Below, in pieces: positions 1-20,336 of a stretch of 35,407 nt of DNA. The notes beneath the pieces are model-generated. The model worked only from the letters and a program-made list of their open reading frames with translations. It had not been told where the DNA came from and ran no database searches. Positions within the stretch are counted from its first letter, which is position 1; every line of letters begins with the position of its first letter. The DNA is from an uncultured Bacilli bacterium (GTDB lineage: Bacteria; Bacillota_I; Bacilli_A; RF39; UBA660). The stretch lies in contig CAJOJO010000004.1 in assembly GCA_905235045.1 (NCBI GenBank), positions 1 through 35,407 on the forward strand. Direction: 5' to 3'. A program made the position numbers and the translations under genes.

Positions 1-1937
1 AACATATAAGTGAATTATCACCTAAATTACAAGAAAAATTATTAACTGATAAAGATAATGCTTATATGAGTTATCATTTAGCTACCATTATTAAAGATGT
101 CCCAATAGATATTAATATTAATGATGCTAAAGTATTAGAAATTGATACTAATAATTTAGTTAAATTATATGAAGATTTAGAATTTTATTCTTTCTTAAAA
201 AATATGAAAAAAGAAGAAAAAAATATTGATTATAAAATTATAAAAGATATAAATGAAGTAAATATTGATGAACCATCTAGTATTTATTTAGAAATCTTAG
301 GTTATAATTATCATACAGCTAAAATACTAGGAGTTGCGATATCTAATAGTAAAGAAAATATTTATATTCCAGCTAACTTATTAGATAAAAAAATAATTAA
401 CGAAAATATTAAATATACTTATGATTTAAAAAAATTATATGTTAGTTTAAATAGATTAGGAATTAATTGCTCTAGTGTTAACTATGATGCTTTTATTGCG
501 GCTTATTTACTTGAATATAATATTAAAGATGATATTGCTTATTTAGCTAATACTCTTAATTATGATATTCCTTTTTATGATACTGTTTATTTAAAAAATA
601 AATCAAAAGATTTATATGAAGAAAAATCATTAGAAGAAACCGCTAAACTAGCTTGTTTAAAATCTAAATTTATTTATGAAACAAAAGATTTATTACTTAA
701 AAAAATAGAAGAAAAAGATTTAGCATATTTATTTAATGAAATAGAAATGCCTTTATCATATACTTTAGGTGATATGGAAATAACTGGTGTTTATGTTGAT
801 ACAACTATATTAGATAATATGGGCCATGAATTTGAAAGTAAAATGAAATCTGTAGAACAAGAAATATATGAACTTGCCGGATGTGAATTTAATATTGCTA
901 GTCCTAAACAATTAGGAGAAGTTTTATTTGAAAAACTAGAATTAGATCATGGTAAAAAAAATAAAAAAGGTTATTCTACAAGTATTGATATTTTAGAAAA
1001 ATTAAAAAATGATCATCCGATTATTGAAAAAATAATTGAGTATCGAACAGTTAGTAAGTTATATACTACCTATATTATTGGTTTAAAAAACTATATTTTA
1101 GAAGATGGTAAAATTCATACAATTTTTACTCAAACATTAACGAGAACAGGACGTTTATCATCAATTGATCCAAATTTACAAAATATTCCTATTCGTAATG
1201 AGTATGGTAAAATGATTCGTAAAGCTTTTTTACCTAGTAAAGATTCTGTTATTTTAAGTGGCGATTATTCACAAGTAGAACTTAGAGTTCTATCTCATAT
1301 GGCAAATATTGAATCATTAAAAGAAGCTTTTATTAACAATATTGATATTCATAGTCAAACAGCTTCTGATATCTTAAAAAAAGATTTAAAAGAAATTACA
1401 TCTAATGATCGAAGAATTGCGAAAGCAGTTAACTTTGGAATTATTTACGGGATTAGTAAATATGGTTTATCTGAAAATTTAGGTATTGGTATTAAAGAAG
1501 CTAGTGATTTTATTGATAAATATTATGAAACATATCCTGGTATTAAAGAATATATGAATGATACAATTGATAAAGCCTATTTAAATGGTTATGTTAAAAC
1601 TTTAATGGGACGTATTAGAACGATTGACGAACTTTCTAATAAAAATAAAATGATTAGAATGAGCGGCGAAAGAATAGCTTTAAATACTCCTATTCAAGGA
1701 ACTAGTGCGGATATAATTAAAAAAGCTATGGTAGAAATTGATAAAGAATTTAAAAAACAAAATATAAAATCAAAAATGATTTTGCAAGTCCATGATGAAT
1801 TAGTTTTTGATTGTTTAGAAAGTGAGCTTGATAAAGTTACTAAAATAGCTGATGATATTATGGAGAACTGTTATCAATTATCTGTCCCATTAAAAGTAGA
1901 TTTTAATTATGGTACTGATTGGTATCGAGCAAAATAA
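1..1937 (+). CDS. polA: DNA polymerase I, 3' part (5' end outside window)
   Basis: Family A DNA polymerase, which fills gaps and replaces RNA primers during replication and repair. The reading frame is open from the first base, and the residues before the first internal Met (position 66) look like the end of the 5' nuclease domain (a KLQEKLL stretch, then LATIIKDVP). The gene therefore starts upstream, and 66 is not its start. Polymerase motif A (DYSQVELR) is encoded at about 1263-1286, motif B (RRIAKAVNFGIIYG) at about 1410-1451 and motif C (HDE) at 1791-1799. The middle domain, where a 3'-5' exonuclease would sit, lacks the DxE metal-binding motif, so proofreading is probably lost, as in Bacillus-type Pol I. 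A terminator follows the stop directly. Confidence 0.96.
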   Translation, partial: HISELSPKLQEKLLTDKDNAYMSYHLATIIKDVPIDININDAKVLEIDTNNLVKLYEDLEFYSFLKNMKKEEKNIDYKIIKDINEVNIDEPSSIYLEILGYNYHTAKILGVAISNSKENIYIPANLLDKKIINENIKYTYDLKKLYVSLNRLGINCSSVNYDAFIAAYLLEYNIKDDIAYLANTLNYDIPFYDTVYLKNKSKDLYEEKSLEETAKLACLKSKFIYETKDLLLKKIEEKDLAYLFNEIEMPLSYTLGDMEITGVYVDTTILDNMGHEFESKMKSVEQEIYELAGCEFNIASPKQLGEVLFEKLELDHGKKNKKGYSTSIDILEKLKNDHPIIEKIIEYRTVSKLYTTYIIGLKNYILEDGKIHTIFTQTLTRTGRLSSIDPNLQNIPIRNEYGKMIRKAFLPSKDSVILSGDYSQVELRVLSHMANIESLKEAFINNIDIHSQTASDILKKDLKEITSNDRRIAKAVNFGIIYGISKYGLSENLGIGIKEASDFIDKYYETYPGIKEYMNDTIDKAYLNGYVKTLMGRIRTIDELSNKNKMIRMSGERIALNTPIQGTSADIIKKAMVEIDKEFKKQNIKSKMILQVHDELVFDCLESELDKVTKIADDIMENCYQLSVPLKVDFNYGTDWYRAK

Positions 1938-1960
1938 CTAACAGAAATGTTAGTTTTTTA
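1936..1960 (+). terminator. Rho-independent terminator of polA
   Basis: An 8-bp stem (AACTAACA with TGTTAGTT) closes a GAAA tetraloop and runs into a T tract. It begins on the polA stop codon. Confidence 0.9.
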
Positions 1961-1969
1961 TTAAAATTA

Positions 1970-1998
1970 TTGCAATACAAACAATTGTTTGTTATAAT
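1970..1998 (+). promoter_or_regulatory. SigA promoter with palindromic operator (LexA-like)
   Basis: A -35 box TTGCAA (1970-1975) and a perfect -10 box TATAAT (1993-1998) are 17 bp apart. Nearly the whole spacer is a perfect 16-bp palindrome, ACAAACAATTGTTTGT (1977-1992), whose core is CAAAC-N4-GTTTG. The same core lies in the recX promoter at 16756-16769. A repressor bound here would block RNA polymerase. LexA is the best guess because of recX, but no lexA gene is in the window. Confidence 0.8.
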
Positions 1999-2003
1999 AT
2001 AAG

Positions 2004-2124
2004 CGTATTAGATAATTTGCCTGATATCTATTATGACAATTGAGGTCGATAACGTGTATTTCTAAAGGCAAAATAGAAATATGCATGATGCGGAGTATAC
2101 TTTTTTAAAGTATGCTCTTTTTTT
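2004..2124 (+). ncRNA. Unassigned structured RNA or leader ending in a terminator
   Basis: A strong promoter and an intrinsic terminator bound about 120 nt without a convincing reading frame. A hairpin (TATTTCTA 2057-2064 with TAGAAATA 2074-2081, extendable with wobbles and mismatches) has a 9-nt loop. AGGCAAA (2066-2072), mostly in that loop, is complementary to TTTGCCT at 2016-2022, which would form a pseudoknot. A small GAC...GTC hairpin (2035-2047) lies between. The terminator (2093-2124) precedes the KilA-N gene, so this may be a small RNA or an attenuating, riboswitch-like leader. I could not match it to a known riboswitch class. Confidence 0.6.
2093..2124 (+). terminator. Intrinsic terminator of the structured RNA
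   Basis: An 11-bp stem (GAGTATACTTT with AAAGTATGCTC, one G-T wobble) closes a TTT loop and is followed by seven T residues. Transcription of the KilA-N gene from the promoter at 1970 must read through it. Confidence 0.9.
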
Positions 2125-2189
2125 ATCTGGAAAGGAGGAAAAATATATAAATATTGACCTAAACTTAAGAAAGGAGAAAAAATATGAAT
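2119..2189 (+). repeat. Direct repeat leader, copy 1 (before KilA-N gene)
   Basis: This 71-bp segment recurs at 3079-3149 with two mismatches (2129/3089 and 2137/3097), exactly 960 bp away. It carries an AAGGAG ribosome site just before the start codon and a second SD-like AAAGGAGG farther up with no ATG after it. It runs through the start codon and so transplants a complete translation start. Confidence 0.95.
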
Positions 2190-3053
2190 GATAAAATTAC
2201 AACTATTATGAATGTGAATGAAAATGAAATTAGGGTGATGAGAATTAATGATGAAGATTATATTTCGTTAACTGATTTGGCAAGATATAAAAATCCAACT
2301 GATCCATCAGATGTAATAAAAAAGTGGTTAAGTAATTATGATACAATTGAATTTTTAGGTTTATGGGAAGAATTAAGTAATAAAAAATTTAATTCGGCGG
2401 AATTCGGCCTAATTAAAAGTGAGGCACCTAAAAAGTCATTTACAATGACACCAAGTCAGTGGTGTACAAGAGTAAATGCTATAGGAATGACATATAGCAA
2501 AGGTAAATATAGTGTTGGCACATTTGCGCATTCTGATATTGCTTTAGAATTTGCTTCTTGGATTGATAATTTGTTTAAAATATATTTAATAAAAGAATTT
2601 AAAAGATTAAAATATAATGAAAGTTATCAAGAAAAAATAGAATGGTCTGTTAGAAGAAGTTTATCTAAAACTAATTATAGAATACATACTGACAGTATTA
2701 AAGAAAACATAGCCCCTAAACTTACCGAAAAACAAAAGCAATTTGTTTATGCAAGTGAAGCAGATGTAACAAATGTTGCTCTATTTGGAATGACAGCAGG
2801 GGAATGGAGACAAAATAATCCTGATTTAGAAGGTAATATTAGAGATTATGCAGATATTCTTCATCTAGTTGTTTTAAGTAATTTAGAAGTTTTAAATGCA
2901 AATATGATTGAGAATAATATAAAACAAAGTGAAAGACTAGAAAGATTAAATACTACGGCAAGAAAAGAGCTTAGTATTTTATCAAAAAATAAAAATGTAC
3001 TCGGTATTGAAAAATTAGATAAAAAATTAATAGTTGCAAAAAAAATTAAGTAA
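2184..3053 (+). CDS. KilA-N domain protein (paralogue of 34284-35132)
   Basis: A 289-residue protein. Residues about 10-140 form a KilA-N-type domain, a fold found in phage and viral DNA-binding proteins: YISLTDLARY, then FTMTPSQW, and HSDIALEFASW near its end. A helical linker follows. Residues about 180-265 form a second conserved module (LTEKQKQF, FGMTAGEWR, GNIRDYADILH) that also ends the neighbouring Bro-N protein in diverged form. The start has a good AAGGAG site. The gene sits behind the operator promoter, the structured RNA and terminator, and the repeated leader. A regulatory, antirepressor-like role is inferred from the family. No phage structural genes are nearby. Confidence 0.85.
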   Translation: MNDKITTIMNVNENEIRVMRINDEDYISLTDLARYKNPTDPSDVIKKWLSNYDTIEFLGLWEELSNKKFNSAEFGLIKSEAPKKSFTMTPSQWCTRVNAIGMTYSKGKYSVGTFAHSDIALEFASWIDNLFKIYLIKEFKRLKYNESYQEKIEWSVRRSLSKTNYRIHTDSIKENIAPKLTEKQKQFVYASEADVTNVALFGMTAGEWRQNNPDLEGNIRDYADILHLVVLSNLEVLNANMIENNIKQSERLERLNTTARKELSILSKNKNVLGIEKLDKKLIVAKKIK

Positions 3054-3058
3054 ATTTA

Positions 3059-3084
3059 AATAATAAAAAAATTATTAGTTTTTT
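3059..3084 (+). terminator. Weak terminator-like hairpin after KilA-N gene
   Basis: A purely A/T stem (TAATAA at 3061-3066 with TTATTA at 3072-3077) is followed by GTTTTTT. It is weak, so the Bro-N gene downstream is probably partly co-transcribed. Confidence 0.4.
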
Positions 3085-3149
3085 ATCTAGAAAGGAAGAA
3101 AAATATATAAATATTGACCTAAACTTAAGAAAGGAGAAAAAATATGAAT
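3079..3149 (+). repeat. Direct repeat leader, copy 2 (before Bro-N gene)
   Basis: Second copy of the 71-bp leader at 2119-2189, with two mismatches. It supplies the Bro-N gene with the same ribosome site and start context, including the first codons (ATGAAT). The promoter and structured RNA are not duplicated. Confidence 0.95.
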
Positions 3150-3989
3150 AACAAATTAGAAACTTTAACAAATTTATTTGAAGGAAAAGAAATTAGAAGC
3201 ATCTGGGATAGTGAAAAGGAAGATTACTATTTTAGTGTAGTTGATGTTATAAATGCTTTAGCAAATCCAAAGGAGCCAAGAAAATATTGGAATGATCTAA
3301 AAAAGAAACTAAGAAGTGAAGGAAGTGAGTTGTCCGAAAAAATCGGACAACTGAAAATGAAGTCACCTAAAGACGGAAAGAATTATTTAACTGATACATT
3401 AGATACAGAAGGAGTATTTAGACTTATTGAGTCGGTACCTAGTCCTAATGCTGAGCCATTTAAACTATGGTTAGCTAAATTAGGTAAACAAAAAGTAGAT
3501 GAAGTATTTGATCCGTCAAAAGGAATTGATCAAATGATAGATTTCTATTTAAAAAAAGGCTATTCATTAGAGTGGATTGAAGCCAGAATAAAAGCTATTA
3601 TAAATAGAAAAAAACTAACTAAAACTTGGAAAGAAAATGGTATTAATAGTAATGCTGAATACGCTATTCTAACTAATGAAATATATAAAGAATGGTCCGG
3701 TATGACAGCAGGTGAATATAAAAGATTCAAAAAAATTAGAAAAGAGTCACTAAGAGATAATATGACTGATATAGAAGTTCTTTTAACTGACTTAGGTGAA
3801 TTAACAACCCGTGAAATAGCTAAAACTAAAAAGCCGCAAGGATTAGATGAAAATATAGAAGTTGCCAAAAGAGGTGGTAAGGTTGCTAAAGATGCTAGGA
3901 ACTCTTATGAAAAAGCTACAAACCAAATCGCACTATCAAGTTCTAATTCACTAAATAATAAATATATTGAACACACCAATACAAAATAA
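3144..3989 (+). CDS. Bro-N (phage antirepressor-type) protein
   Basis: A 281-residue protein. Residues about 10-110 form a Bro-N domain: IRSIWDSEKEDYYFSVVDVI, RKYWNDLKKK, then TLDTEGVFRLIESVPSPNAE and FKLWLAKLG. Bro-N domains occur in phage antirepressors and baculovirus BRO DNA-binding proteins. The C-terminal half carries WSGMTAGEYKRFKKIRKESLRDNM and LGELTTREIAK (shown here as two motifs), resembling the C-terminal module of the upstream KilA-N protein. The two genes thus combine different N-terminal DNA-binding domains with a related C-terminus. The gene uses the repeated leader and ends at a clear terminator. Its target is unknown. Confidence 0.88.
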   Translation: MNNKLETLTNLFEGKEIRSIWDSEKEDYYFSVVDVINALANPKEPRKYWNDLKKKLRSEGSELSEKIGQLKMKSPKDGKNYLTDTLDTEGVFRLIESVPSPNAEPFKLWLAKLGKQKVDEVFDPSKGIDQMIDFYLKKGYSLEWIEARIKAIINRKKLTKTWKENGINSNAEYAILTNEIYKEWSGMTAGEYKRFKKIRKESLRDNMTDIEVLLTDLGELTTREIAKTKKPQGLDENIEVAKRGGKVAKDARNSYEKATNQIALSSSNSLNNKYIEHTNTK

Positions 3990-4012
3990 AGGAAGTGTAA
4001 ACTTTCTTTTTT
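3989..4012 (+). terminator. Terminator of the KilA-N/Bro-N island
   Basis: AAGGAAGT pairs with ACTTTCTT (one wobble) around a GTAA loop and is followed by T residues. It separates the island from murG. Confidence 0.85.
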
Positions 4013-4017
4013 ATTTT

Positions 4018-4046
4018 TTTCATAATAAATAATAATATGGTATAAT
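4018..4046 (+). promoter_or_regulatory. Promoter of murG operon, extended -10
   Basis: TGG-TATAAT (4038-4046) is an extended -10 element. A weak -35 (TTTCAT, 4018-4023) lies 17 bp upstream. Confidence 0.7.
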
Positions 4047-4066
4047 ATTTAATAGGATGTGATTAT

Positions 4067-5143
4067 ATGAAAGTAGTCATAAGTGCTGGTGGAACAGGTG
4101 GACATATTTATCCTGCTTTAGCCATAATTAATAAAATAAAAGAAAAAGAACCAAATAGTGAATTTTTATATATTGGAACTCACAACCGAATGGAAAAAGA
4201 TATTGTCCCAAAATATAATATTCCTTTTGAACAAATAGAAATATATGGTTTTAGTAAAACAAAAATATTTAGAAATTTTAAATCAATATCTTGTATTATC
4301 AAAGGAATTAAAAAATGTAAAAAATTAATTAAAGAATTTAACCCTGATATAGTTATTGGGGTAGGTGGATATGTAACAGTACCAGTAATTTACAGTGCCA
4401 AAAAATTAGGCTATAAAACAATTATTCATGAACAAAATAGTATTCCTGGTAAATCAAATAAATTTTTAATTAAATATACTGATAATATTTTGGTTAGTTT
4501 TCCATCATCAATTAAATATTTCCCTGAAGATAAAACAATATTTACCGGTAATCCTTGTAGTGAGGAAGCAATTAAAAAAGAAGCTATTGATAAAACCACT
4601 TTAGGACTTCATAAAGATAAAAAACTAGTATTAATTGTTATGGGATCTTTAGGATCAGTAAAAGCTAATAATGCTTTATATAAGGCAATGGAATCATTTG
4701 ATGGTAAAAATTATGAAGTATTATATGTAACAGGTGATAAATTCTACGAAGAATATAGTAAGCGAAAATATCCTAGTAATGTTAAAGTAGTACCATTTAT
4801 AAACGAAATGACTAGAGTTATGAAAGTAACTGATGTTATGGTATCTCGTGCTGGCGCATCAACTTTATCAGAAATAATTAGTTTAAATGTTCCAACTATT
4901 TTAATACCAAGTCCATATGTTGCGAATAATCATCAATATAAAAACGCTATGGATTTAGTAAATGAAAATGCTGCTTTATTACTAGAAGAAAAAGATTTAA
5001 ATGGTAAAAACTTAACTGATAAAATTGATGAATTAGTCAAAAATCCTAATATTGTAAAAGAAAACTTAAAGAAATTTGAAATAAATGATAGTGCTTCAAA
5101 AATATATGAAGCGATAAAAGGTAGAGTAGATTATGATAAATGA
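4067..5143 (+). CDS. murG: UDP-GlcNAc:lipid I GlcNAc transferase MurG
   Basis: Peripheral membrane glycosyltransferase that adds GlcNAc to lipid I to make lipid II, the peptidoglycan precursor. The 358 residues match the usual length. The N-terminal glycine-rich loop GGTGGH is at residues 8-13. GVGGYVTVP follows in the N-domain, and SRAGASTLSEI in the C-domain is the UDP-GlcNAc-binding region. The gene begins an operon: its last 11 bases overlap murB, which suggests translational coupling. It stops on TGA, which shows that UGA is not read as Trp here. Confidence 0.97.
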   Translation: MKVVISAGGTGGHIYPALAIINKIKEKEPNSEFLYIGTHNRMEKDIVPKYNIPFEQIEIYGFSKTKIFRNFKSISCIIKGIKKCKKLIKEFNPDIVIGVGGYVTVPVIYSAKKLGYKTIIHEQNSIPGKSNKFLIKYTDNILVSFPSSIKYFPEDKTIFTGNPCSEEAIKKEAIDKTTLGLHKDKKLVLIVMGSLGSVKANNALYKAMESFDGKNYEVLYVTGDKFYEEYSKRKYPSNVKVVPFINEMTRVMKVTDVMVSRAGASTLSEIISLNVPTILIPSPYVANNHQYKNAMDLVNENAALLLEEKDLNGKNLTDKIDELVKNPNIVKENLKKFEINDSASKIYEAIKGRVDYDK

Positions 5144-15934: not shown

Positions 15935-16736
15935 ATGAATTATTATAATGATATTAAGACATTATTAATTAATAATGAAATATATAACAAGGTAAAAGAT
16001 TACTCAAAAGAGCGTAATAGAGTTATAACTTATTTTGAAATTGGAAGATTGTTAAATGAAGCTGGTAAACATTATGGTGTTGATATAATAGGTGAATACT
16101 CAAATAAATTAGTGCTTGAAGTAAATAAAAAATATAATAAAAGAACATTATTTAGAATGCGCCAATTTTACAAATTATTTAGTAATGAAAAAGTGTCCAC
16201 AGCGTGGACACAATTAACTTGGAGTCACGTAAGATTATTATTTAGCTTCGGTATTGAAAAAATTAATTATTATATAAATGTTTCTATAGAAAGAAATCTT
16301 TCGGTAAAAGAATTAGAATATATAATAAAGTCAAATGAGTATGAAAGATTGCCAAATAAAACGAAGAAAAAAATAATACAAAATAAAAATATTGGTATAA
16401 CTGATTTAGTAAAAGATCCGATAATAATTAGGAATAATAAGAATTATGAAATAATATCAGAGAATATTTTACAAAGATTAATACTAGAAGATATATCATC
16501 CTTTTTAAAACAATTAGGTAATGGTTTTACTTTTATTGATAATGAATTTAAAATAAAAATAGGTGATAGATATAACTATATAGATTTACTTTTACATGAA
16601 TTATATTGATAAAAATATAAAAACAATTGAAGAAGATAAAACAATAGGTATAATTCTTTGTAAAGAAGGTAATGAACTTGTTATGGAATATTGTAGTGAT
16701 AATAGAATATTTAATGCTACTTATTTATGTGTGTAA
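15935..16736 (+). pseudogene. DUF1016/YhcG-family nuclease, broken by internal deletion
   Basis: The N-terminal part matches the DUF1016 N-terminal domain (YFEIGRLLNEAG, YNKRTLFRMRQFYKLF, LTWSHVRLLFSF) and reaches the start of the PDDEXK nuclease domain (YNYIDLLL). The frame then ends at 16609. The next frame, from about 16596, carries the family's C-terminal piece: MNYIDKNIKTIEEDKTIG, IILCKEGNELVMEYCSD, then a stop at 16734-16736. The segment between, which should hold the ELK catalytic residues, is absent, so a deletion that also shifted the frame removed the active site. A good AGGAGG site remains. A truncated 224-residue protein may still be made. Confidence 0.85.
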
Positions 16737-20124: not shown

Positions 20125-20336
20125 AGAAAAACATTGATAGAGAATAAGTAAAAATTACCTCTAATGGAAAGCGAGTTAGGTATGGTGGAAGCTAACACAT
20201 CTATGTAATTTTGAACAACCCTCTTGAGTTGCTTAAAAGCCGCACAAAGTGCGTTATCAAATAAAGTTTCACAAACAGTGATAATTAGGGTGGCACCACG
20301 GGTAAATCTCGTCCCTTGATTATACTGTTTTTTGTT
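20125..20336 (+). promoter_or_regulatory. T-box riboswitch, probably Asn-tRNA responsive
   Basis: A T-box leader that binds uncharged tRNA and allows read-through. The T-box core AGGGTGGCACCACGGG is at 20287-20302. The terminator form pairs the ACAGTGATAAT side (from 20274) with ATTATACTGT before a T run. The specifier region reads GAACAACCC (20213-20221): AAC (Asn, 20214-20216 or 20217-20219) fits asnS in the operon, while CAA (Gln, 20216-20218) is possible because GatCAB makes Gln-tRNA. I favour AAC, which is followed by the usual purine. Confidence 0.93.

Follow-up and report, generated by a model that had tools for sequence, protein, structure and literature searches.

Ways of quieting costly single-gene bacterial defences are known for few systems, usually with one RNA per protein. 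In RCd22-AbiF of Clostridioides difficile (abiF motif, RF03085), a vegetative promoter is followed by a structured RNA of ~100-130 nt, an intrinsic terminator and a defence-type gene reached by read-through; a short transcript and the read-through have been mapped, and there is no promoter between the terminator and the gene (PMC12373285). The same succession of RNA, terminator and gene occurs in type III toxin-antitoxin systems (ToxIN, TenpIN and CptIN; AbiQ). For AbiD1 of Lactococcus lactis, PMC12373285 describes a structured 5' leader before an abortive-infection gene and a short terminated transcript. Attenuators and riboswitches also place a fold and then a terminator before a gene, with one RNA class serving several genes.

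We analysed a stretch of 35,407 nt (the window) from an uncultured Bacilli bacterium (NCBI GenBank assembly GCA_905235045.1, contig CAJOJO010000004.1). An earlier note on this DNA had described an RNA, lying between a strong promoter and an intrinsic terminator, in which a long hairpin closes a loop of 9 nt. All three elements are present (Table 1), and the observation is larger than first described: the RNA is a member of a family absent from Rfam, and its functional unit is the core together with the terminator. As judged from sequence, its layout is that of RCd22-AbiF, from the vegetative promoter to a defence-type gene predicted to be reached by read-through. However, whereas RCd22-AbiF has two repeated hairpin motifs and one Abi_2 family, the present RNA has kissing loops and many unrelated proteins; no match to the RF03085 model was obtained in the members searched, nor was an Abi_2 protein found downstream. 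AbiD1, which we liken to it by description, differs in that control was reported to be exerted at translation by a phage protein, and on one gene only. Unlike attenuators and riboswitches, of which the window contains a T-box leader, the kissing-loop RNA has no detected alternative antiterminator pairing.

Table 1. Positions of the RNA element, the genes behind it and other features of the window
Feature	Position	Strand	Details
Promoter, sigma-70 type	1970-1998	+	TTGCAA-17-TATAAT, extended TG; -10 hexamer starts 12 nt upstream of RNA core
RNA core, kissing-loop family member	2005-2093	+	Model R1, 90.3 bits (partly by construction, because the window sequence is in the R1 seed), E ~2e-12 (rough, as for all RNA models here, owing to short calibration)
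Hairpin 1	2009-2030	+	2009-2014 / 2025-2030; 6 of 7 aligned pairs with double changes; 92% of cells paired
Kissing helix, loop-1 strand UUUGCCU	2016-2022	+	Complement of 2066-2072; double changes in 6 of 7 pairs
Linker ACAAUUG (consensus ACAAUUU)	2036-2042	+	Near-invariant, unpaired; column conservation 0.87-1.00
Hairpin 2	2047-2092	+	Outer pairs C2047-G2092 and G2048-C2091; conserved asymmetric internal loop; inner stem 2054-2064 / 2074-2084 (11 bp), double changes in 11 of 11 pairs
Kissing helix, loop-2 strand AGGCAAA	2066-2072	+	Partner of 2016-2022; covariation and variants
Intrinsic terminator	2092-2125	+	Hairpin 2092-2118 and U-tract; directly abuts core
KilA-N gene (PADLOC PDC-S22)	2184-3053	+	PF04383, 2.2e-17; PDC-S22, 1.6e-112
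71-nt leader before Bro-N gene	3079-3149		97% identical to stretch behind terminator before KilA-N; no RNA core
Bro-N gene, second downstream (PADLOC PDC-S13)	3144-3989	+	PF02498, 1.2e-10; PDC-S13, 4e-108
Island flanked by polA and murG	1-5143		polA and murG not adjacent in relatives examined
DUF1016-type gene	15935-16609		Seemingly truncated; no such RNA upstream; RecX-like gene next
T-box leader	20125-20319		104.9 bits; ahead of apparent gatC and gatA

A plain blastn search with the window sequence, before any model, showed that the genome itself carries three copies and that four related genomes carry five more; from these eight copies the covariance model R1 was built. Among 386 genomes of the bacterial family to which the host belongs, R1 matched 79 places, spread over 54 genomes with at most four in each, and 83 members were aligned. 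Class-wide (296 genomes) and phylum-wide (295) samples, searched with stricter filters that may have missed distant relatives, gave matches solely inside the host's bacterial family. The genomes searched were metagenome-assembled; public contigs matching the RNA belong to assemblies titled Bacilli, Bacillales, Erysipelotrichaceae or Tenericutes, many of them from ruminant gut.

The earlier note had recognised no known class, and Rfam 15 agreed with it. Over the RNA in the window no family was reported at gathering (the best chance match, at a permissive threshold, had an E-value of 0.25); 16 divergent members gave at gathering only tRNAs, elsewhere in the loci, and the cores of subclasses B and C gave nothing near gathering. 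Annotated phage and plasmid collections contained no blastn match to the RNA, while in viral contigs one sequence pattern hit four contigs, unconfirmed by the model, and three tighter patterns hit none. A literature search found nothing joining KilA-N and ORF6N with an upstream noncoding RNA, and no report covering three of ORF6N, KilA-N, DUF1016 and RhuM; the main text of a human-microbiome RNA survey (PMC8040213) contained none of the family names searched. No solved structure was sequence-related to the KilA-N or ORF6N proteins.

The folding energy of positions 2004-2124 was 3.1 sd below that of dinucleotide shuffles, and was beaten by one of 200 shuffles. That the region holds only chance hairpins around an ordinary terminator, with no functional RNA, would be in keeping with its AT-richness and with consensus promoter matches being no commoner than in shuffles; it is refuted by the homologues with covariation, and we regard its probability as negligible. 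A covariance-model check on homologues, as the earlier note had proposed, revealed strong covariation in both the hairpin and the loop pairing. Across the 83 sequences, 228 cells carried double changes compared with 52.9 ± 5.6 in shuffles, double changes occurred in 24 of the 27 pairs, and 92.4% of cells could pair compared with 37-53% when the partner was slid by 1-3 columns; kinship among the sequences inflates these counts, with the margin over the slid controls remaining large, and the alignment was fitted by the model to hairpins 1 and 2, which favours those helices, the kissing helix lying outside the model.

The helix formed by 2016-2022 and 2066-2072 had been put forward as a possible pseudoknot. 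The pairing is real and covaries, and because 2016-2022 forms the loop of a further hairpin (hairpin 1), the interaction is now refined to a loop-loop (kissing) contact. Independently of any alignment, its two strands were found as CUUGCC/GGCAAG, UUUGCCU/AGGCAAA, CUUACC/GGUAAG, CUUGUC/GACAAG, CUUGCU/AGCAAG, AGUUGCU/AGCAACU and UCUAGC/GCUAGA. A helix closing the whole element in the minimum-energy fold (2004-2010/2086-2092) was rejected, its covariation score being 0.052 compared with 0.060 in shuffles, and 78.3% of cells being paired compared with 77.6%. In the internal loop, an A-to-C change in CGAUAA tends to accompany an A-to-C change in AUGAUGCGG (loci L168, L115, L165, L167, L171 and L173), possibly reflecting a non-canonical contact. 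The kissing helix may also be broken more often where the downstream gene is degraded, a weak trend that we leave out of the argument.

A -10 box (TANNNT) begins 12 nt 5' of the core in 64 of the 83 members, and this fixed distance places the predicted transcription start roughly where hairpin 1 begins. In all members but one (82/83) the core is succeeded by a terminator hairpin, with a median offset of 0 and a median energy of -10.75 kcal/mol. The distance from this hairpin to the start codon has a median of 34 nt and is below 45 nt in 43 of 73 loci; the gap is thus mostly too short for a separate promoter, and in most loci the gene probably relies on read-through. As judged from sequence, the order of promoter, core and terminator supports the layout of an attenuating leader, or of a small RNA with read-through, that the earlier note had suggested. 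A conserved structure in a same-strand position directly upstream of genes is also what defines a cis-regulatory leader in the broad sense, the effect on expression being predicted.

A recognised gene family lies within 1.5 kb downstream, on the same strand, in 77 of the 83 members and is lacking in six. The first recognised genes encode ORF6N proteins with a PLD-like C-terminal half (36 members, remnants included), RhuM proteins, mostly with a Fic domain (18), KilA-N (6), DUF1016 (5), Bro-N (3), DinD (2) and a putative restriction enzyme (3), with one case each of a PBECR3 nuclease, a Fic fragment, a PLD-like remnant and a truncated ToxN. Many are truncated or frameshifted. The spacing can be constant: 31 ORF6N domains sit 87-114 nt from the RNA. 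The proposal that the RNA controls antirepressor-like proteins stands in part: most of the genes carry N-domains of the KilA-N, ORF6N, Bro-N or RhuM kind, yet DUF1016 and PBECR3 nucleases and a ToxN are found behind the same RNA, and "single-gene phage-defence candidates" is the more fitting description of these families. In PADLOC, the representatives tested matched PDC-S02, S05, S13, S22 and S23 and AbiQ, with a weak restriction-enzyme match, "phage-defence candidate" being a database class and a candidate label only.

Two further copies lie in the genome of the window (G000). One, on the minus strand (L002, C1:50145-53335), belongs to a second KilA-N/Bro-N island whose RNA region is 91% identical; behind its first Shine-Dalgarno sequence is a 13-codon frame (MSIDLKKGEKYGK) that overlaps the KilA-N start, and whose ATG is missing from the window copy. 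The third copy (L006, C12:12878-12966) precedes a 345-residue protein with a PBECR3 nuclease domain.

Our preferred reading, to which we assign a probability of roughly 0.55, is that the element is a terminator-gated leader RNA recognised by a shared factor, with defence-type genes kept low until a read-through signal. A vegetative promoter would start a leader RNA of ~120 nt, which would fold into two hairpins in kissing-loop contact and run straight into the intrinsic terminator. Polymerase would reach the next gene (KilA-N, then Bro-N in the window) only via read-through of the terminator. We infer that transcription would usually end prematurely in vivo, yielding the short RNA, and that control runs in the direction of keeping the defence-type gene low. 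A factor common to all loci, rather than the neighbouring protein, would recognise the fold and the ACAAUUU linker and alter termination; such a trigger would act in trans, and may be phage infection or another stress. What the sequences show is the RNA family with its fold, the order of promoter, core and terminator, the cis linkage and the exchange of cargo behind one RNA; these speak for the reading, as do the RCd22-AbiF precedent and a ToxIN locus described below, and the spread of PADLOC candidate families over each larger RNA subclass points to a function, and not a partner, that the loci have in common.

The manner of control was examined by pairing the core with nearby sequences. With its own terminator arm the core scored -3.61 kcal/mol, no better than the -3.81 kcal/mol obtained with the arm of another locus, and its pairing with its own downstream translation start or ribosome-binding region was no better than in swapped controls. 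This makes a simple antiterminator, or a block of translation through base pairing, unlikely, and a classic riboswitch with mutually exclusive (terminator-type) states was rejected, no antiterminator pairing having been found. The sharp bounds of the element, with the fold at the expected start and the terminator abutting, also fit a small RNA that stands alone and acts in trans on targets other than the gene behind it, which would be a passenger. The kissing-loop fold would suit such an RNA, as would the finding that pairing to the neighbouring translation start is no stronger than in swapped controls; however, the cis linkage to recognised gene families in 77 of 83 members, and the lack of room in most loci for another gene promoter, argue against this explanation, which we consider very improbable.

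The earlier note had also raised the possibility that the RNA is a partner of the island. In its most specific form, this would be an RNA antitoxin: excess short RNA would bind the product of the gene that follows and silence it, on the pattern of type III toxin-antitoxin systems or RCd22-AbiF. The shared order of promoter, RNA, terminator and gene with read-through (PMC12373285), the several toxin-like cargo proteins (Fic, PBECR3, DUF1016/PDDEXK and ToxN), and the many damaged cargo genes, which are common when genes are costly, all point this way, and we retain the idea mainly because in the RCd22-AbiF precedent the RNA binds the protein (PMC12373285). However, unrelated protein families number nine behind RNA subclass A, six behind B (a PLD-like remnant counted there may be an ORF6N relic) and five behind C; the three-member subclass D precedes two, and RhuM genes are found behind all four. 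The presence of five or more families behind every one of the three larger subclasses argues against an antitoxin matched to its neighbour. Within the same 54 genomes, 31 of 139 ORF6N domains have the RNA and 108 do not, and the RNA-less proteins carry the same C-terminal domain, several of their genes having simple promoters. Short RhuM matches of the RhuM-Fic type had the RNA in 16 of 37 cases, full-length RhuM in 0 of 36. The notion of a dedicated partner is thus not supported, and an RNA antitoxin appears unlikely.

Comparison with ToxIN led to the same view. Instead of tandem 34-40-nt pseudoknot repeats there is a single core in the window, with no tandem array, and kissing-loop RNA loci have no consistent toxin fold: the genes in the window are KilA-N and Bro-N, and among the 83 members only L119 (genome G231) precedes a toxN, which is truncated. 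The terminator between RNA and gene is a feature in common with ToxI, read-through itself being predicted. ToxN loci of the host's bacterial family had 34-38-nt ToxI-like repeats close upstream in 30 of 30 cases examined. L119 likewise has its own array of 34-nt ToxI repeats with a terminator, and our RNA core and terminator lie between that array and toxN. Insertion of the RNA unit between ToxI and toxN is the simplest reading of this one locus; a role as ToxN antitoxin was ruled out there, the ToxI repeats being separately present upstream.

Cargo is swapped behind the RNA. The 3' end of the pyruvate phosphate dikinase gene (ppdK) is a recurrent site (L111, L159, L160, L169 and L122), downstream of which Bro-N, ORF6N or DUF1016 follow similar cores; in L169 and L122 the core starts on the stop codon or immediately upstream of it and lacks its own promoter. 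Two genomes share an orthologous site (L110/L124) at which the upstream flank is 86% identical and both RNA subclass and cargo differ. In the window, the 71-nt repeat before the second gene is, from its sequence, likely to be a recombination seam. The island lies at a rearrangement junction, since polA and murG are not adjacent in the relatives examined; no clean empty polA-murG site was found among them. The core might thus be a homology or insertion module for exchanging defence cargo or acquiring leaders, with little regulation, a proposal that the ppdK site, L110/L124, the insertion-like arrangement in G231 and the 71-nt repeat would all suit. However, the compensatory loop-loop changes and the placement of promoter and terminator require selection on the RNA, beyond DNA homology, and neither terminal repeats nor an integrase was seen; we regard it as quite improbable.

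These results suggest a shared switch holding unrelated candidate anti-phage genes in check within one family of uncultured gut bacteria. A more tentative possibility is that one RNA class might serve a whole set of unrelated single-gene defence systems as their common sensor of infection or stress, with a single host or phage factor reading the RNA and any gene recombined behind it joining the regulon. If the terminator-gated reading is true, defence cargo as different as KilA-N, ORF6N, RhuM-Fic, DUF1016, Bro-N/DinD and nucleases can be placed under one interchangeable control element, and searches guided by the RNA would help to uncover more defence genes, together with the signal that frees them from control.
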